A model generated the notes under the pieces. The model searched no databases, was not told the DNA's origin, and saw nothing but the letters and a program-made list of their open reading frames with translations. From Vreelandella zhuhanensis (lineage in GTDB: Bacteria; Pseudomonadota; Gammaproteobacteria; Pseudomonadales; Halomonadaceae): 64,000 nucleotides of DNA. The stretch covers positions 372,001 through 436,000 of the forward strand of contig NZ_WTKP01000001.1 in NCBI RefSeq assembly GCF_009793355.1. Reading direction: 5' to 3'. Position numbers and translations under genes: made by a program. This document shows positions 3,286 to 12,717 of this stretch, piece by piece. Each line of letters opens with the position of its first letter. The first letter of the stretch is position 1.

Positions 3286-5703
3286 ATGGCTGAGCAAAAA
3301 ATGCCAAAACGTCGTTACTGGTTGGGAGGCAAACGCGCCGCTGAGCAGGACCGGTTCTTTCGGGAAGCCCTCGAGACTCAAGGCTGGGAGCCAGGCAATG
3401 CAGATGAGTGGGACGCCGGTTGGTACACGGGCATGCCCGACCCAGCCCAATTCAAGCATGTCTCCGCGCAACGCAAGCTCAATCATTTTCCCGGCAATAA
3501 TGCCCTGACGGTAAAAAGTCGCCTGCATGACATTCTGGCGGCGCTGCGTTCCCGTATCCACGAAACCTTCGGTCCGAACCACGAAGCGAGTGCGCGGCTG
3601 GCCTTCTTTCCTCGGGTCTACTCCATGCCCAAGGATTACCATGCCCTGCAACAGGCGGCCCTTGCGCATCCCGAGAAACACTGGATTCTCAAACCCAAGA
3701 ATGCCTCCAAGGGCAAAGGTATCCGCGTGCTGCGAGACGTGGGCGAGACACCGCTCGAACCCAACTGGATGGTTCAAGAGTATCTGGCCCATCCGCATAC
3801 CATTCGCGGCCACAAATATGTGCTTCGCCTTTATGTGTTGATTGCTTCTCTCGAACCGCTTCGGCTGTATGTCTATCGCCAAGGGTTTGCCAAGCTGGCC
3901 TCGGAGCCTTATGACGTCAACGATGCAGACAACCCCTACAGCCAGCTGACCAACCCCGATATCAACGCCCTGAATACCTCGGCGGAGATTCCCGTCGAGT
4001 TCATCGACCTGGAACGCTACCGTGAATGGTTGCGTCACCAAGGCCATGACGACGAACGCCTCTTCAAGCAAATTCATGACTTGATCACCCTGACCGTGAT
4101 TTCCGCTCTGGATGCCATGCGCCAACGCACGGCCGAGTTCGGCGCCGACTCCCAAGGTTGCTATGAGCTATTGGGCCTTGACTGCATGGTGGACGCCGAC
4201 CTTAAGCCCTGGATTCTGGAATGCAACCTCAGCCCCTCGCTGGGCATCTGCGCCAAGCCCGAGGATGGCGGCATCGTCGAGGAAAAAATCAAGAATGGGC
4301 TGGTGAAGGATATGGTTGCGCTGGTGGGGATCGATGCACCCGGGCAGCAAACCGCCGAGACATTCGCTCAGCAGGCCGAACAGGAACTGGCCCGTGCCGG
4401 TGGCTTCCAGCGCCTGTATCCCAATCGATCGCCATCGCACTATCTGCCGTACTTCTCGCTGCCCCGGCTTGCTGATATTCAGCTGGCCGACGCCTTGGCA
4501 GGCCATCCCGTTCCACGCCCGACCTTATGCCGTTGGCAGGCAGCGGAAGTGTTCGATGATGACCAGCTCGCGCTCTACGCCACCCATACCGGGCATTACT
4601 ATCGGCTCAACGATACTGCCGCCTTGATCTGGTTGCTGGCAACCGAGGGCCTGGACCCGGACGCCATCACCGAGCAACTCGCCTGTTCCGCCGGGCTCAC
4701 GCAAGGGGAAACCGTCGATAGCCAGGCCTTGCGTCACGAGGTATGGACGAGCCTTGCAGAATGGTGTCGCAACGGCTTACTCAGACAGCAGGTTCCAAGA
4801 CGGGAGTTTCCAAGACAACAGGGCGAGCAGCCTCCCTCCGGCCACGCTTTCTCCTCTGCCGATGAGACTCAGCCGAGTGCCTCTGAGGTGTCGCTGCCTT
4901 CCATGAAACTGCTAGGCAAGGACCAGCAATGGCAACTGCACACTGACAGCGCCCCCGTTCTGGCCCGGCTGGCGCCGCTGCTGTCGCCCATGGCTGAAGA
5001 TGATTACGCCAAGGGCCTGCCTCGCCTTGAAATCCTGCGGGATTCGCCGGGTTACACCCTGGTCACCCATGGAGAAGTGCTGGCTTCGCGCCTGAAACTG
5101 GCCTCGCTAGCGCCTGCACTGATTACCTATCTGGCCCGCCAGGCGGCATCGACACACCAACTGGTGATCGATGCCGGCTTGCTGACGACGCCGGAAGGGA
5201 CAATGGCGCTATGCCTGTTTGCCACCCCTGAAGAAGGCGAGGCCTTGGCAAAACGCCTTGCGTCATCTTCGGCGCTGTCATTGACGCGGGGAATCCGCCT
5301 GGATACCACTACCTTCATGCAAGCAGAACCCTTGGGACTGCCGATATCGGCCACCCTGCTGCGCGAAGCCACAACCTCGCTGCTGGTGTTACCTGAAAAA
5401 GGCCAAGTGCGACAGGTGATATGGATCAACCATGAAAAAGCCCAAGAAGCTTCCCCGGCCTTATCCGAGCCCCTTTCAAGCCTGGATGCGCTGGGGGCGT
5501 TATTGCCCTGCTGTTACGCCCCCCATGGCAAACCGCTGGATGCCGATGCCATCACCGGCCTGAACGACTGGCTCTCCCAATGTGAGCGCAGCGTGATCAA
5601 TCTGGAGGACGGCAGCGACGCGACCCAGATACTGACACAGCGACTCAAGGCTAAGCCTTCAGCCGCCCGAGCAGAAGCCGAGGATGAAGCCGAAGCCGAA
5701 TAA
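3286..5703 (+). CDS. Tubulin-tyrosine-ligase-like (TTLL) ATP-grasp amino acid ligase fused to PqqD-like and degenerate HprK-like regions
   Basis: An 805-residue multidomain protein. Residues ~60-350 are a TTL/TTLL-type ATP-grasp domain: WILKPKNASKGKGIRV (133-148), MVQEYL (162-167), GHKYVLRLYVLIAS (175-188), PLRLYVYRQG, SQLTN, and the metal-binding end LGLDCMVDADLKPWILECN with SPSLG (296-320). Eukaryotic TTLLs use this fold to add Glu, Gly or Tyr to acidic protein tails. Residues ~415-500 resemble a PqqD-like peptide-binding domain (HYYRLNDTAALIWLL), a domain that presents precursor peptides to modifying enzymes. Residues ~540-770 look like an HprK-related fold lacking a P-loop (inference). 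The protein ends in its own acidic tail (AEAEDEAEAE). GGGAGGG precedes the ATG. It is the first gene of the operon, followed by a Glu/Gly-repeat peptide, its likely substrate. Confidence 0.85.
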   Translation: MAEQKMPKRRYWLGGKRAAEQDRFFREALETQGWEPGNADEWDAGWYTGMPDPAQFKHVSAQRKLNHFPGNNALTVKSRLHDILAALRSRIHETFGPNHEASARLAFFPRVYSMPKDYHALQQAALAHPEKHWILKPKNASKGKGIRVLRDVGETPLEPNWMVQEYLAHPHTIRGHKYVLRLYVLIASLEPLRLYVYRQGFAKLASEPYDVNDADNPYSQLTNPDINALNTSAEIPVEFIDLERYREWLRHQGHDDERLFKQIHDLITLTVISALDAMRQRTAEFGADSQGCYELLGLDCMVDADLKPWILECNLSPSLGICAKPEDGGIVEEKIKNGLVKDMVALVGIDAPGQQTAETFAQQAEQELARAGGFQRLYPNRSPSHYLPYFSLPRLADIQLADALAGHPVPRPTLCRWQAAEVFDDDQLALYATHTGHYYRLNDTAALIWLLATEGLDPDAITEQLACSAGLTQGETVDSQALRHEVWTSLAEWCRNGLLRQQVPRREFPRQQGEQPPSGHAFSSADETQPSASEVSLPSMKLLGKDQQWQLHTDSAPVLARLAPLLSPMAEDDYAKGLPRLEILRDSPGYTLVTHGEVLASRLKLASLAPALITYLARQAASTHQLVIDAGLLTTPEGTMALCLFATPEEGEALAKRLASSSALSLTRGIRLDTTTFMQAEPLGLPISATLLREATTSLLVLPEKGQVRQVIWINHEKAQEASPALSEPLSSLDALGALLPCCYAPHGKPLDADAITGLNDWLSQCERSVINLEDGSDATQILTQRLKAKPSAARAEAEDEAEAE

Positions 5704-5815
5704 TGCAGCAAAGGCAGCTTCATCCTGGGCAAAACCGGAGTCGGCCCAGCTGGCTGACTTCATTGCGGGACGACATACAGCGTATGTCAATCGAGACCAT
5801 CCAAGGAGATAGACC

Positions 5816-6148
5816 ATGTCATTACAAGATCAAAAACGCCGCAGCCTGCTGAGTCGTCTGAGCCGTCAGCTGGGCTATACGGCCCCGGCATTGGCGCTTA
5901 TCGCCGGCACCGCGGCTTTCCAGGCCGTGGCAAGCGATGAAGCCACTCAAGCAGGGTTTAGCGCTTATCAGGAAGAAACCCTGTTGCTGGCGAGTATGCA
6001 CGCCGAAGGTGAAGCCGAGGGAGAGGGTGAAGGAGAAGGCGAGGAAGAGCATGAAGCTGAGGGCGAGGGAGAAGGCGAGGAAGAGCATGAAGCTGAGGGC
6101 GAGGGAGAAGGCGAAGGCGAAGGCGAAGGCGAAGCGGAAGCTTCCTGA
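5816..6148 (+). CDS. Small exported peptide with tubulin-tail-like Glu-Gly repeats; candidate TTLL substrate
   Basis: A 110-residue protein behind a strong AAGGAG site. Residues 1-40 form a signal-like leader: basic KRRSLLSRLSR, a hydrophobic stretch (APALALIAGTAAF) and a possible signal peptidase site after AVA at 37-39. Residues 41-62 are a linker. Residues 64-108 contain only Glu, Gly, Ala and His, with a 12-residue unit (GEGEGEEEHEAE) repeated twice and then a run of GE pairs. This resembles the EGEGEEEGEE tail of alpha-tubulin, the substrate of TTLL enzymes. The gene lies 112 bp after the TTLL-like ligase gene. Precursor status is inference from linkage, leader and tail. The opposite-strand reading frames here are artefacts of the repeat. 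Confidence 0.8.
   Translation: MSLQDQKRRSLLSRLSRQLGYTAPALALIAGTAAFQAVASDEATQAGFSAYQEETLLLASMHAEGEAEGEGEGEGEEEHEAEGEGEGEEEHEAEGEGEGEGEGEGEAEAS
6022..6130 (+). repeat. 36-bp repeat and GAAGGC-type microrepeats encoding the Glu-Gly tail
   Basis: A purine-only-like stretch of GAGGGAGA/GAAGGCGA codons. A 36-base unit ending in GAGGAAGAGCATGAAGCT occurs twice (ending near 6058 and 6094) and is followed by five or so tandem GAAGGC hexamers. Such a tract can change length by slippage, so the number of Glu-Gly pairs may vary between strains. Confidence 0.8.
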
Positions 6149-6238
6149 TCCCGAGCCGTTGCATCCAATGGAAAGGCTGGTGCTGTCCGGCTTCAGCCTC
6201 TCCCTTTCATCGCCGTGGCCCCAGAGGGAGACAGTGCA

Positions 6239-6802
6239 ATGGCAATAAACGACAAGGCGTTGGCGTTGGAGGCGCTCATCGAGGAAAGCCTTCATCCCCT
6301 TGCTCAACTCAGACAATTCCTCAATAGCCTATCGCCTCATCACTACCAGGAGGTCCTGGGCGAACGCAAGATGCATACCCTGGGGAAACACGTTCGCCAC
6401 ATTATCGATCATTACGATGCATTGCTGGATAAAGACATTTCATCCTTCCCCGATAGCCTCAACTATGAAAACCGCGAGCGCGATGTCGCGCTGGAGCAAT
6501 CGCCGCCCCTGGCCGTCGAGCACTTGAGGTGGATTGAGCGCGGCTTGCAAGCCCTGAAGCAAGGCTCAGCTACATCGCATCTTTCCTTGACCTACCCTGA
6601 CGCCCTCACCACCTTGACGCTCGATTCGAGCCTTGAACGCGAACTGGCCTTTCTCACCAGCCATACCATCCATCATATGGCGCTTATCGGGTTGTTGGCT
6701 GAAAGTCTCGGCTTGCGCGTCCCTGAAACCTTTGGCGTTCACCCTTCCACCCTGCGCCACTGGCAACGCGAATCGCTTGAAACCTCTGCAAGGAGTGCCT
6801 GA
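6239..6802 (+). CDS. DinB-fold family protein, third gene of the TTLL operon
   Basis: A 187-residue soluble helical protein with the DinB/YfiT-type four-helix pattern and likely metal-binding histidines: HVRHIIDHYDALLD near residue 50 and TSHTIHHMALIG near residue 145. Many members are metal-dependent transferases using thiols or other cofactors; the specific reaction here is unknown and the DNA-damage name does not imply function. The start is the ATG at 6239, preceded by GAGGGAGA; the earlier in-frame ATG at 6215 has no good site. It lies 90 bp after the Glu-Gly peptide gene and its stop overlaps the next start (TGATG), so it is translationally coupled to the DUF302 gene. Confidence 0.75.
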   Translation: MAINDKALALEALIEESLHPLAQLRQFLNSLSPHHYQEVLGERKMHTLGKHVRHIIDHYDALLDKDISSFPDSLNYENRERDVALEQSPPLAVEHLRWIERGLQALKQGSATSHLSLTYPDALTTLTLDSSLERELAFLTSHTIHHMALIGLLAESLGLRVPETFGVHPSTLRHWQRESLETSARSA

Positions 6803-7335
6803 TGTCTTACCATACTCGATCCATATCCACCTCTCGGCAGCATTCGAAATTCTGTCACATTGGCGCCGCCTTGCTGGCCGCCATGCTCATGCTGGCGGTG
6901 GCCTTTCCAGTGGCTGCCGAGACTCAGTGGCCCGAAGAAGGCTGGCAGGTAATGCCCACTCAACAGAGTTACGCCGAACTTCTCGAATCTCTACGTGAAG
7001 CCGTTCCCGCCGAAGGCATGGCGGTAGTGACGGAAGCCGGCCCCACCGAAGCGGCCGCGCAGCGAGGTGAAACGATTCCCGGCAACCGCGTCGTGGGGGT
7101 GTTCCGCAATGACTTTGCCGTGCGAGCTCTGCGCAGCAGCGTACCGGCGATGATAGAAGCGCCTGTGCGTTTTTACGTCACGGAACAGGCCGATGGCACG
7201 GCCACGTTATCCTGGAAAACCCCGACGCATGTCTTCGCGCCCTATGCCCATGAAAGCGATGAAAACCTGCTCGAACTCGCGAAGGAACTCGACGCTATTT
7301 TCATGGCGATCGCCGAGCGCGCCACCCAACGCTGA
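6802..7335 (+). CDS. Secreted DUF302 domain protein, fourth gene of the TTLL operon
   Basis: A 177-residue protein with an N-terminal signal peptide (hydrophobic segment about residues 18-37, cleavage probably after AVAAE-type sequence near 40), followed by a DUF302 domain: the segments SYAELLESLREAVPAEGM, FRNDFAVRAL and a C-terminal LLELAKELDAIF helix. DUF302 is a small alpha/beta fold of unknown biochemical role, often periplasmic. The start codon overlaps the stop of the DinB-like gene. An exported protein in this operon fits the exported nature of the Glu-Gly peptide. Confidence 0.8.
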   Translation: MSYHTRSISTSRQHSKFCHIGAALLAAMLMLAVAFPVAAETQWPEEGWQVMPTQQSYAELLESLREAVPAEGMAVVTEAGPTEAAAQRGETIPGNRVVGVFRNDFAVRALRSSVPAMIEAPVRFYVTEQADGTATLSWKTPTHVFAPYAHESDENLLELAKELDAIFMAIAERATQR

Positions 7336-7501: not shown

Positions 7502-8476
7502 ATGCTCAAGCAATTATTCATCAAACCGGCCTTGCTCGCTCTGGGCATGGCTGCGTTTGCCTCGCATGCTTTGGCTATCGAACTCCCTTCGGCCCTGGTA
7601 GACGCAGAATGGCTCAGCAATCATCTGGAAAATGATGACCTGGTGGTCCTCGATGTACGTTCCGGGATCGATAATGGCGGCGATCGTTCGACCTTCGAGC
7701 AGTCGCATATTCCCGGCAGTCTTTATAGCAGCTATACCAATGATGGCTGGCGCGAAAAACGTGGCGATGTCGCAGGCCTTCTCCCTCCAGAAGACAAACT
7801 GAAGCGCTTGATCGGCGGCCTGGGCATCGGCAACGACGATACGGTAGTGATTGTCCCGGCAGGCACTGGCGCGACTGACTTTGGCAGTGCCGCGCGTATC
7901 TATTGGACCTTCAAAGTACTCGGCCATGATGACGTTGCCGTGCTCAATGGCGGGTTCAATGGCTGGAAAGAGCAAGGCTACGAGGTGGCAAATGGCTCTC
8001 CGGCCTCGCGGGAGATGACTGTTTTCGACGTCGATTTTCGCCAGGAACTGATCGCCACGCTGGAAGAAGTCGAAGCCGCTCGTAACACTCAAACGCAGCT
8101 GGTGGATGCCCGGCCTTCCGATTATTTCACCGGCGAGACGACCTCGCCTGCGGTTCGTTCCGCCGGCACCATTCCCGGTGCCACTAGCTTGCCCCACAAC
8201 TCGCTGATGCAAAACCGTGACAGCGCCTTTTATCTGGATACGCAAAACCTGCAGGTACGCATCAACGAAGCGCAATTGAACAGCAATACTCAGACCGTAG
8301 CATTCTGCAATACCGGGCACTGGGCGGCGACCGACTGGTTCGTGCTCAGTGAAGTGGCAGGCTTCGATAACGTTTCCATGTACGACGGTTCAATGGCGGA
8401 ATGGACGCTCAGCGACAGTCGCCCGGTGCAAACCGCCAAACGTGGCCTCGCGCGCGTCATCGAATTCTTCAACTAA
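7502..8476 (+). CDS. Periplasmic two-domain rhodanese-type sulfurtransferase
   Basis: A 324-residue protein with a signal peptide ending near SHALA (residue 25) and two rhodanese domains. The first (about 30-160) has LVVLDVRSG and HIPGSLY but no catalytic cysteine loop; the second (about 180-310) has the loop CNTGHWAAT with the probable active cysteine near residue 268. Rhodaneses transfer sulfane sulfur from thiosulfate or persulfides to thiols or cyanide. The next gene is a YeeE/YedE-type transporter associated with thiosulfate or sulfur-compound import, so the pair probably handles periplasmic thiosulfate. An AT-rich stretch without genes (7336-7501) upstream is the likely promoter. Confidence 0.87.
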   Translation: MLKQLFIKPALLALGMAAFASHALAIELPSALVDAEWLSNHLENDDLVVLDVRSGIDNGGDRSTFEQSHIPGSLYSSYTNDGWREKRGDVAGLLPPEDKLKRLIGGLGIGNDDTVVIVPAGTGATDFGSAARIYWTFKVLGHDDVAVLNGGFNGWKEQGYEVANGSPASREMTVFDVDFRQELIATLEEVEAARNTQTQLVDARPSDYFTGETTSPAVRSAGTIPGATSLPHNSLMQNRDSAFYLDTQNLQVRINEAQLNSNTQTVAFCNTGHWAATDWFVLSEVAGFDNVSMYDGSMAEWTLSDSRPVQTAKRGLARVIEFFN

Positions 8477-8554: not shown

Positions 8555-9763
8555 ATGAGTCAAGCAAGTACTCTCACTCCCACTCGACAGCCCTTGCAGA
8601 TCGACCGTTTCGTGGTCGGTGTGGCTCTATTCGGGCTCGCCCTTCTCGGCTTTTTGATCTGGCTGGAAACCGCCCCCTTCCTGGTAGTCTTGTTTGCGGT
8701 GGGTACGCTTCTCGGGGTGGCGCTTTACCACGGCGCCTTTGGGTTCACTGCCGGTTGGCGCAACCTGGTGACAAAAAAACGCGGGGCGGGAATGCGGGCC
8801 CAGCTGTTGTTATTCGCCCTGACCTCGCTGCTGATGGTGCCCCTGTTAGGTAACAATCCCGACGACTTGATCGGCGCGGTGGCTCCGGTAGGCACTTCTC
8901 TGATAGTGGGTTCCTTCATTTTCGGCGTGGGCATGCAACTGGGCGGAGGCTGCGGCTCAGGAACGCTATTCACCGTGGGTTCGGGCAATATCCGCATGGT
9001 GGTCACGCTGCTGTTTTTCATCATTGGCGCGGTGATCGGCTCGATTCACCTGCCCTGGTGGCTGGACCTGCCGGCGGTGGACCCTATCAGCCTGATCGAC
9101 GGCTTGGGCATTCCCGGTGCCATTGCCGCACAGTGGCTGGCGCTGGGTGCGATAGCCTGGTGGGTAACGCGCATCGAACGGCGCGCGCATGGCAATGTCG
9201 AGCGTGCCGAATGGCGTTTTCGCAGTGGGGATAACGGCTTTTTACGCACCCTTCTTACCGGTCGCTGGCCGTTTTTCTGGGCAATTGCCGTGCTTGCCAT
9301 CGGCAATACCTTGACCCTGGTGCTCGGTGGTTCGCCCTGGGGCATTACCTTTGCCTTCAATCTCTGGGGTGCCAAGGCATTACAGGCCGTCGGCGTCGAC
9401 ATGAGCCAGTTCGAATTCTGGACGTGGGATTACCCGGCCATGGCCTTGGCCGACTCCGTGCTGGTCAATATCACCTCAGTGATGAACTTCGGCTTGTTGC
9501 TGGGCGCTATGCTCGCCGCCGGCATGGCGAACCGCTTCAATGAGGCCAGCCGCACTCGCCCCCAAGGGCGCCAGTTCCTGGCGGCTATTGTAGGCGGCTT
9601 GATGTTGGGATACGGCGCGCGACTGGGCTTTGGTTGCAATATCGGTGCGCTGTTTTCAGGCATCGCCTCGGCCAGCCTGCACGGCTGGATATGGTTTGCT
9701 TCAGCTTTCCTGGGGTCGATGATGGGCATTCGCCTACGCCCCTGGTTCCGTCTACCCAACTGA
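8555..9763 (+). CDS. YeeE/YedE (TsuA-like) sulfur-compound transporter
   Basis: A 402-residue inner-membrane protein with about nine or ten hydrophobic segments and two copies of the family's Cys-containing signature: GGGCGSGTLFTVGSGN (about residue 130-145) and GFGCNIGALFSGIA (about 355-370). TsuA of this family imports thiosulfate through conserved cysteines. Here the two signature cysteines are present and a periplasmic rhodanese is directly upstream, so thiosulfate or a related sulfur anion is the likely substrate. A small Cys-containing membrane peptide follows 15 bp downstream. Family assignment is firm; substrate is inferred. Confidence 0.87.
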   Translation: MSQASTLTPTRQPLQIDRFVVGVALFGLALLGFLIWLETAPFLVVLFAVGTLLGVALYHGAFGFTAGWRNLVTKKRGAGMRAQLLLFALTSLLMVPLLGNNPDDLIGAVAPVGTSLIVGSFIFGVGMQLGGGCGSGTLFTVGSGNIRMVVTLLFFIIGAVIGSIHLPWWLDLPAVDPISLIDGLGIPGAIAAQWLALGAIAWWVTRIERRAHGNVERAEWRFRSGDNGFLRTLLTGRWPFFWAIAVLAIGNTLTLVLGGSPWGITFAFNLWGAKALQAVGVDMSQFEFWTWDYPAMALADSVLVNITSVMNFGLLLGAMLAAGMANRFNEASRTRPQGRQFLAAIVGGLMLGYGARLGFGCNIGALFSGIASASLHGWIWFASAFLGSMMGIRLRPWFRLPN

Positions 9764-11024: not shown

Positions 11025-11390
11025 ATGAGCTTCAGAGACTGGTTAATAAATAACCAGTCAGCTGAAATTTTTATTACTCTTCTGAGAATGGCCATGATTG
11101 AACAACGCGTTCGTATCGATCTTGCTGATGGATCAGCCTGGTACTTTCACGCTGATGACACTCCGGAAAAACGGGCCTATCTGATTCTTGACCACGTCCG
11201 TGAGACTCTCGAGAACATGACCCTGAAATCCGACGATGCTCGGTATATGCCCAATGATCAGTTGTTCCCGTTGCTCCAAAAGCTTGCCTATGACATGGAC
11301 TTTGCTAACGGACTCCTAGAGATAGATGGCTACTCCGGTGACGGCATACCTCTCTCGCCTTCTTGCCCGAAAGACGCGAGGAAATGCTGA
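11025..11390 (+). CDS. Hypothetical protein
   Basis: A 121-residue soluble protein of mixed composition with no signal peptide, membrane segment or motif that I recognise. It has an acidic middle (ADGSAWYFHADDTPEKRAYL) and a Cys-containing C terminus. It stands alone: an AT-rich upstream region with an inverted repeat precedes it, and a terminator-like hairpin follows. Isolation by its own promoter and terminator supports a real gene; function is unknown. Confidence 0.55.
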   Translation: MSFRDWLINNQSAEIFITLLRMAMIEQRVRIDLADGSAWYFHADDTPEKRAYLILDHVRETLENMTLKSDDARYMPNDQLFPLLQKLAYDMDFANGLLEIDGYSGDGIPLSPSCPKDARKC

Positions 11391-11407
11391 TCAGGCCAGG
11401 ATTTTCA

Positions 11408-11441
11408 AAGGGGGCTCTGCTTAAGATGCGCAGGCCCCTTT
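11408..11441 (+). terminator. Rho-independent terminator after the hypothetical gene
   Basis: Stem AAAGGGG(G)CTCTGC pairing with GCGCAGGCCCCTTT across a 7-base loop, then TTTT. It separates the plus-strand hypothetical gene from the convergent SpoIIAA-like gene and could work in both directions. Confidence 0.6.
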
Positions 11442-11463
11442 TACTTGTGATCTTCTGCAGACC

Positions 11464-11847
11464 TCACCTTTGCTGCGTGCCCTTCTCTTCAAGAACCCAC
11501 TGCTCTGCATCTTTCAAATCATCAAAGGGAAAATGCCTGATCTCGGCTGCGACAAAATGATCGGCCACTTTTTCTCCTACCTTGCCTACCGCGGAATCCG
11601 TGACGAGGGCGACTTTGGGAATCTTCTCGTGGTAATCGCGGATGAAGCGAAAATGCGTGAGCATGGCATTGAAGGACTCCCAGCCCGGAAAGTCGCGAGT
11701 ATTGATGATTACCCCCTTTATCTCTCCACCCTTTTCCAGAAACTCATCTGCCAGGCGCGTAGCGTACTCGAAATCCGCCTCACGCAACTCGTCGCCTGGG
11801 TGGAGCGTGATGATGCCTCGGTTCTCGTCGAGTTTACTTTCCAGCAT
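11464..11847 (-). CDS. SpoIIAA-like (STAS-fold) protein
   Basis: A 127-residue protein of the SpoIIAA-like family (PF11964 type): a beta-alpha STAS-like fold with an early beta-strand GIITLHPGDEL, a central KGVIINTRDFPGW, and the tail segment RHFPFDDLKDAEQWV. Members are small cytosolic proteins possibly binding lipids or acting as anti-sigma-type regulators. The start is the ATG at 11847, preceded by AGGAGG; the longer reading to 11952 has no support. It is convergent with the upstream hypothetical gene. Confidence 0.8.
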   Translation of the reverse strand: MLESKLDENRGIITLHPGDELREADFEYATRLADEFLEKGGEIKGVIINTRDFPGWESFNAMLTHFRFIRDYHEKIPKVALVTDSAVGKVGEKVADHFVAAEIRHFPFDDLKDAEQWVLEEKGTQQR

Positions 11848-12045
11848 GAAACCTCCTAAATCGCTATGGGTCTTTCCTGCCAAGACAAGGTGTCTTCTCA
11901 GTGTAAGACATAGAGCGAGACCCTGCGCGGACCGCAATAAGCAACCGACCACCGCTTACGCCCTTCATGGGTTCAATGCGATGAGGATGTTAAGCTCTTT
12001 CTTACCGATGCCGTTTTAACCGACCCGCCTATCCTTGGAGCTTCC

Positions 12046-12717
12046 ATGATTCGCGTTCATCACCTGGAAAAGTCGCGTTCACATCGCATTCTCTGGCTGC
12101 TGGAAACGCTAGCGCTTGAGTACGAAGTCATCACCTATCAGCGTGATAGCGATACACAGCTTGCGCCTGAGGCCCTCAAGCGCGTTCACCCGCTGGGTAA
12201 GTCGCCGGTCATCACCGATGGTGAAATAACGGTTGCAGAATCTGGCGCCATTATCGACTACCTGCTTAGCCGCTACGGTGAGGGCCGCTGCCAGCCAAGC
12301 AGTGACGATATCGCGGAGTGGGCCAATTATCGTTATTGGATGCACTACGCGGAAGGCTCGCTGATGCCGCTGTTAGTCATGCGCTTAGTGTTCGCTCAAC
12401 TACCCAAGCAGTCGCCGTGGGTGATCAAACCGATTGCCAAGGGCATTAACGACACGGTGAATAAGCGATTCATCACGCCGCAGTTAACCCAGCACCTGGC
12501 CATGATAGAAAGCCACCTTGCCAAGCGCCGGCAGTTCTCCAGCACTTGGCCGAGCGGGGCCGATGTGCAAATGAGCTTCCCACTAAAGGTGCTGGCGATG
12601 TCTCAATCGCTTGATGACTACCCAGCGATTATGGCTTTAGTCGAGCGTATCGACGCCGATTCCGGGTGGCAGCGCGTGGTAGAGCGTGCGGGCCCGCTGA
12701 CACTGCCGGGGCAGTAG
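12046..12717 (+). CDS. Glutathione S-transferase family protein
   Basis: A 223-residue GST: a thioredoxin-like N domain (residues 1-80) with SRSHRILWLLE, the cis-proline KSPVI at about 50, and the glutathione-contacting ESGAIIDYLL; then an all-helical C domain (85-220). The catalytic position near residue 10 is Ser. TTGGAG precedes the ATG. It stands between a divergent-looking SpoIIAA-like gene and the convergent hydrolase gene. Substrate is unknown. Confidence 0.87.
   Translation: MIRVHHLEKSRSHRILWLLETLALEYEVITYQRDSDTQLAPEALKRVHPLGKSPVITDGEITVAESGAIIDYLLSRYGEGRCQPSSDDIAEWANYRYWMHYAEGSLMPLLVMRLVFAQLPKQSPWVIKPIAKGINDTVNKRFITPQLTQHLAMIESHLAKRRQFSSTWPSGADVQMSFPLKVLAMSQSLDDYPAIMALVERIDADSGWQRVVERAGPLTLPGQ

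Follow-up and report, generated by a model that had tools for sequence, protein, structure and literature searches.

What does a bacterial TTLL-type ligase do beside a small peptide that carries a conserved leader and an acidic repeat tail? The question is raised by a locus in Vreelandella zhuhanensis (Halomonadaceae), within a 64,000-nucleotide stretch of contig NZ_WTKP01000001.1 (positions 372,001 to 436,000), hereafter the window, in whose numbering coordinates are given. We consider it reasonably probable that this ligase, which joins a TTLL and a PqqD domain, attaches glutamate to side-chain positions of the peptide tail in a leader-guided reaction that precedes predicted export to the periplasm.

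The ligase gene (3286..5703, forward strand, as are all window features below) encodes 805 residues, delineated from its open reading frame, Pfam matches and profile alignment. Pfam analysis revealed a TTL domain (PF03133; 187 bits against a cut-off of 20.1, E 5.8e-55) and a PqqD domain (PF05402; 27.3 bits against 23.4) with its core at residues 429-467 (4570..4686), the predicted leader binder. The TTLL hallmark motifs and the fused PqqD-like domain described in the first-pass annotation are present, and the profile search that it had named beforehand as a test returned the TTL match. Within the catalytic domain (residues 6-390; 3301..4455), defined by invariant residues and by sequence and structure comparison, K136, K177, R181, D303, E312 and N314 are invariant in all 68 aligned rows, which comprise the window ligase and 67 relatives from the best 120 of 515 matches. 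These ATP-grasp residues were matched to TTLL6 residues by sequence alignment, and we take them to fill the roles of their TTLL6-type counterparts in catalysis. The predicted fold is likewise TTLL6-like, with structure-search rows mainly over residues 6-390. Ranked by sequence against solved structures, the ligase places TTLL6, TTLL7 and TTLL11, all deposited as tubulin polyglutamylases, above entry 5vlq (5.5e-10), presumably the glycylase TTLL3. This order argues against a glycylase-like domain adding glycine instead of glutamate to the tail, an alternative that we regard as very unlikely even though TTLL glycylases share the fold and have the acidic tails of tubulin as targets, and the tail is already Gly-rich.

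The long C-terminal part of the ligase has no Pfam name. Profile comparison of residues 535-793 (4888..5664) with HprK-type proteins of other genomes gave an hhalign probability of 97.1 (E 4.8e-11, 247 columns; six rows, four of them distinct and two duplicates), and a repeat with eight further proteins from an HprK_rel_A search gave 89.6 (E 1.9e-6); the TTL and PqqD parts, run as controls, reached only 0.2-2.2. The GxGK[ST] P-loop is not kept in this region, the window ligase having FATPEEGEALAK at the aligned position, and the HprK_rel_A profile (TIGR04352, NCBIfam) matches neither the ligase at E up to 1 nor anything else in its own genome. PqqD-HprK proteins with an intact P-loop exist separately, in G673 (HprK_rel_A 1.4e-26, under the family cut-off) and G684. 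As read from these profiles, the ligase architecture is TTLL, PqqD and a degenerate HprK-like domain, the last probably a platform and not a kinase.

The adjacent gene (5816..6148), preceded by an AAGGAG that we read by eye, encodes a 110-residue tailed precursor peptide recognized by its open reading frame and by leader searches, in agreement with the first-pass description of a leader-bearing peptide with a Glu-Gly tail in the next gene. Its conserved leader (residues 1-62; 5816..6001), supported by searches and alignment, has an R/K-rich basic start, a hydrophobic stretch (YTAPALAL) and an AVA-type end (AVAS); by eye it resembles an export signal, and it is the predicted PqqD target. The repeat tail (residues 62-109; 5999..6142), defined by composition and predicted to be the region modified, consists solely of Glu, Gly, Ala and His, as first described, although it spans 48 residues instead of 45 and is followed by a final Ser. 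Across the tails of 47 of 50 loci (windows that include a few lead-in residues, with G096 and G135 represented by a second tailed peptide instead of the adjacent one), Glu makes up 40.5%, Ala 24% and Gly 23%, Glu falls mostly at every second position, and both Glu, all four Gly and all four Ala codons are in use. This codon variety indicates that the repeat is retained as protein and is not a mere DNA microsatellite. The leader evolves under purifying selection (median dN/dS 0.22; 347 pairs from 28 leaders with dS 0.05-1.5), and together the conserved leader, this ratio and the codon variety rule out a chance or misread frame. Cys is absent from the window peptide and from the tails of the 47 loci. 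A promoter and terminator scan yielded counts not above those of shuffled sequences.

The distribution of the two genes is what ties them together. A related-locus search started from the ligase gave no more than 2 close loci, the closest named relative found being Vreelandella rituensis (92% identity across the ligase), and the leader retrieved just 6 entries in a protein search, probably because short low-complexity genes are seldom predicted; we therefore searched genomes, in family (201 genomes), class (369) and phylum (284) samples together with an order sample, with peptide residues 1-62 as the leader query in the family and a leader profile in the class. Ligase and leader each occur in 46 of the 201 family genomes and coincide in 45 (45/1/1/154; Fisher's p = 1.2e-42, a guide only, as the genomes are related). 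In 43 of the 46 ligase-bearing family genomes, the leader with its acidic tail lies downstream on the ligase strand, no further than about 1.3 kb away, and is followed by a DinB gene, so the acidic neighbour that the first-pass annotation had made a test in advance proved consistent among homologues. A further leader match sits between the ligase and the counted peptide in G048, G062, G064, G085 and G100. Ligases at 44-54% identity from the order and class samples (G259, G635, G745 and G840) also have leader and tail nearby. The leader profile matches only five of the 369 class genomes, namely G000, G635, G745, G840 and, weakly, G720 (3.5e-4), and the first four all carry a ligase of the window family. 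These data support calling the ligase-peptide pair a system.

The leader is not confined to the stand-alone peptide. Among the 45 genomes that have ligase and leader, 31 hold a further leader match away from the ligase's peptide, in an open frame of 227-378 residues. The 24 such proteins that we read (23 CxxCH proteins, one of them in G119, plus that of G259, with others such as those in G060, G175, G171, G155, G111 and G125 left aside) share one plan—leader, (EA/EG)n repeat, then a cytochrome c domain with CxxCH. These SoxA-like cytochromes with an internal Glu-Gly/Ala repeat are exemplified by L094 (G259; oriented 11270-12181) and L107:4001-4732; a representative scored 27.6 bits against a cut-off of 27 for the SoxA-TsdA cytochrome domain and 1.3e-7 (31 bits, under the cut-off of 110) for SoxA TIGR04484. 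A third kind of leader protein adjoins DoxX, with a long tail in G080 and a short one in the V. zhuhanensis genome (contig 19, L103:2956-3661), where a 61-residue leader peptide directly follows a DoxX-type gene. In that genome the window peptide and this one are the only two leader matches, with no cytochrome version visible to our searches. One leader is thus common to three tailed kinds of protein, and its presence on three such unlike proteins meets the need of a PqqD-guided enzyme. This wider set, like the HprK-like domain, goes beyond the content of the first-pass annotation.

The same distribution bears on whether the tail is modified at all. Even unmodified, low-complexity acidic tails can bind metal, and sulfur and redox genes surround the locus, so that the tail might be an unmodified cation buffer or spacer, merely co-regulated with a ligase that acts on another, unseen substrate. 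We judge this quite unlikely, since the leader on peptide, cytochrome and DoxX-linked peptide tracks the ligase genome by genome, other loci included, and the PqqD domain is expected to read it.

The position of the tail bears in turn on where residues would be added. The ligase could, like RimK and TTLL11, lengthen a free C-terminus, or could build later-cleaved residues on a scaffold peptide in the manner of PEARL-like scaffold-peptide extension, with the acidic tail serving for docking only. For TTLL11, Glu addition to the carboxyl group of a free C-terminus has been described (PMC11574253), a precedent that counts against side-chain addition and by which stand-alone peptides, which end in the tail, could be treated alike; DinB could then act on the added residues. 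Internal cytochrome tails could not be so treated, however, because there the C-terminus belongs to the cytochrome domain, and the tail C-termini of the peptides differ among groups (e.g. EAEG, EGT, GSA, SGY and GAEAG). We therefore consider C-terminal extension unlikely. The earlier proposal that the ligase lengthens or caps the tail is not supported in that form, the internal tails of the leader cytochromes excluding end-capping as a reaction common to all; branching at side chains, in the manner of tubulin, is the better fit.

Leader-guided glutamylation of side chains would proceed in a simple order. The PqqD domain would bind the leader, a pairing backed by the co-occurrence, and the tail would be fed into the TTLL site. 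There, by analogy with the TTLL family, the ATP-grasp site may join Glu, rather than Gly, to the gamma-carboxyls of tail glutamates in the cytoplasm at the cost of ATP. The shared leader could then serve as the export signal, and the putative product, a hyper-acidic brush, would lie in the periplasm and bind cations or dock redox partners.

Several observations weigh against this scheme or limit its reach. The PqqD match is only 4 bits over its cut-off, Glu and Gly as donors are not distinguishable from sequence, and the tail modification itself is predicted from genes and their sequences. In G021 a shortened ligase runs into a DinB remnant and no leader match occurs in the genome, which suggests that the system is being lost there; in G119 a leader cytochrome is present with no ligase match found; and G175 and G171 have a ligase without an adjacent peptide, their leaders lying at other sites, with a separate locus in G175 grouping rhodanese, peptide and DinB. 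Nine more of the 369 class genomes contain partial ligase matches (E 6.4e-44 to 0.001), to the TTL part in seven (G673 and six others) and to the PqqD part in G684 and G720, and only G720 has a leader match, a weak one. Because eight of these nine lack the leader, its tie is to the TTL-PqqD family and not to TTL enzymes at large. The spread is also narrow: among the 284 phylum genomes, full matches occur only in G000 and G259, with a 32-residue match in G859 (5e-4). The contig 19 peptide of V. zhuhanensis carries only a stub tail (GEAEGEATS), and the proposed mechanism does not yet assign a step to DinB.

Many homologues of the ligase appear, among the matches listed, under the names 'PqqD family peptide modification chaperone', 'tubulin polyglutamylase TTLL5' and 'amylase'. 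The TTL-PqqD family is thus already catalogued, with no role assigned; the name 'amylase', borne by many of the TTL-PqqD homologues listed, is unsupported by any domain found. The G840 ligase matches the window ligase over residues 8-471 only and then continues into DoxX-like sequence. A stand-alone TTL protein of 360 residues in G673 (L098:7932-9956), about 29-30% identical to the TTL part, precedes a protein that bears an RR leader, contains the motif PAHAQTS and is not Glu-rich. We also considered the acidic C-terminus of the ligase (AEAEDEAEAE) as a built-in substrate and rejected it as not conserved: an acidic excess of at least 5 in the last 20 residues occurs in 1 of 68 rows, and the window ligase itself falls below that value.

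The weak leader match in G720 points to possible relatives of the system. In this genome (loci L100 and L166), a 2-oxoglutarate (2OG)-Fe(II) oxygenase-PqqD protein (2OG 2.2e-10, PqqD 28.9 bits, HprK_rel_A 3.4e-5) is encoded directly after a peptide whose leader resembles the one described here and whose tail is rich in Pro and Thr, the peptide start lying at a contig end, and a glycosyltransferase-PqqD protein has an HprK-type C-terminus (5.3e-21). This single enzyme-tail pair matches enzyme chemistry to tail residue and hints at a possible modular class. More tentatively, with the odds somewhat against it, the locus may be a bacterial counterpart of the tubulin code, in which a PqqD-guided TTLL enzyme would add polyglutamate branches to the (Glu-Gly/Ala)n combs that exported peptides and c-type cytochromes carry, within a modular class where interchangeable tail-modifying domains (TTLL, 2OG-Fe oxygenase, glycosyltransferase) share a PqqD/HprK-like base and pair with leader peptides that have a fitting tail residue.

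The neighbouring genes suggest a setting of sulfur or redox stress. Counts were made over 50 ligase loci with flanks of up to 8 kb, less where a contig ended and on the upstream side in the window. Gene families were defined as blastp clusters, each named from a single representative by Pfam or, for TetR, by eye. Downstream of the peptide lie a DinB-fold protein (6215..6802; PF05163, 24.5 bits, cut-off 23), present at 46 of the 50 loci, and, sharing one base with it, a DUF302 protein with an N-terminal hydrophobic stretch (6802..7335; PF03625, 27.2 bits, cut-off 23), whose cluster is found at 21 loci, with 11 more in a second DUF302 cluster. Both families of the operon first described are accordingly confirmed by Pfam, DinB as a conserved partner and DUF302 as a frequent one at only about half of the loci. 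The His pattern of DinB, conserved in 46 aligned copies (GKHVRHIIDHY, SHTIHHM, FGVHPSTLRH), is likely a metal site, and our guess is that the protein works as a metal-dependent enzyme on this peptide too. Further downstream are a rhodanese with two matched stretches (7502..8476; PF00581, 7.4e-27; 31 loci) and an occasional neighbour, a YeeE/Sulf_transp family transporter (8555..9763; PF04143, 3.1e-70), with similar genes near the ligase in G092, G259, G840 and L001. Other recurrent families are an extracytoplasmic function (ECF) sigma factor (37), TetR (28), a carboxymuconolactone-decarboxylase type (25), DUF3047 (20), a zinc-finger anti-sigma-like protein (14) and DoxX (11). Rhodanese, DoxX, the SoxA-like cytochrome and the ECF sigma factor together would point to a stress-regulated sulfur or redox setting.

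TTLL-type polyglutamylation is known on eukaryotic tubulin and some other eukaryotic proteins. If the proposed reaction is correct, tubulin-style polyglutamylation would be brought to bacteria, in a simple system, with a small, genetically defined candidate substrate, for how TTLL enzymes choose and branch acidic tails. It would also define a class resembling ribosomally synthesized and post-translationally modified peptides (RiPPs), in which periplasmic redox proteins end up with a charged brush, and would be relevant to the origin of TTLL-type chemistry. In the literature, where coverage of subscription papers was thin and absence is not proof, we found nothing joining TTL enzymes with PqqD, RiPPs or Halomonas, and no description of this system in the texts as far as they were accessible, in line with the earlier statement that no described bacterial system with this arrangement was known.

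Comparison with known systems places the locus among several partial relatives. The eukaryotic polyglutamylases TTLL6, TTLL7 and TTLL11 share the TTLL domain, whereas here the enzyme is bacterial, fused to PqqD and HprK-like domains, and presumed to act on non-tubulin acceptors with a predicted export leader. RimK is not known to belong to the TTL family, acts on ribosomal protein S6 and works without a leader or PqqD. It is nonetheless similar as a bacterial ATP-grasp enzyme that builds Glu chains onto protein (cited in PMC4431377). PqqD/HprK-related kinase A cassettes (TIGR04352) share the PqqD and HprK-type domains, and in G720 such a unit follows a different modifying domain within one protein, next to a leader peptide of similar kind; the window ligase differs in lacking the P-loop and any HprK_rel_A match and in its attached TTLL domain. 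With PqqD-guided RiPP systems it shares a PqqD-type domain and, in the same genomes as the enzyme, a conserved leader with a variable repetitive core. The nearest described logic is that of the bufferins and oxazolins (PMC12452194), RiPPs that carry Sec signals and undergo Cys chemistry by MNIO enzymes and that likewise combine a Sec-like leader, a repeat core (Glu-Gly-Lys-Cys-Gly in oxazolins) and DoxX and sigma-factor neighbours. No MNIO (DUF692) enzyme occurs among the nine window genes scanned, the scan being confined to these. Relative to bufferins and oxazolins, the present system has no core Cys, a TTLL ligase in place of the MNIO and a PqqD domain in place of the DUF2063 partner, and we would class it as a new combination of RiPP-like logic with TTLL-like chemistry.

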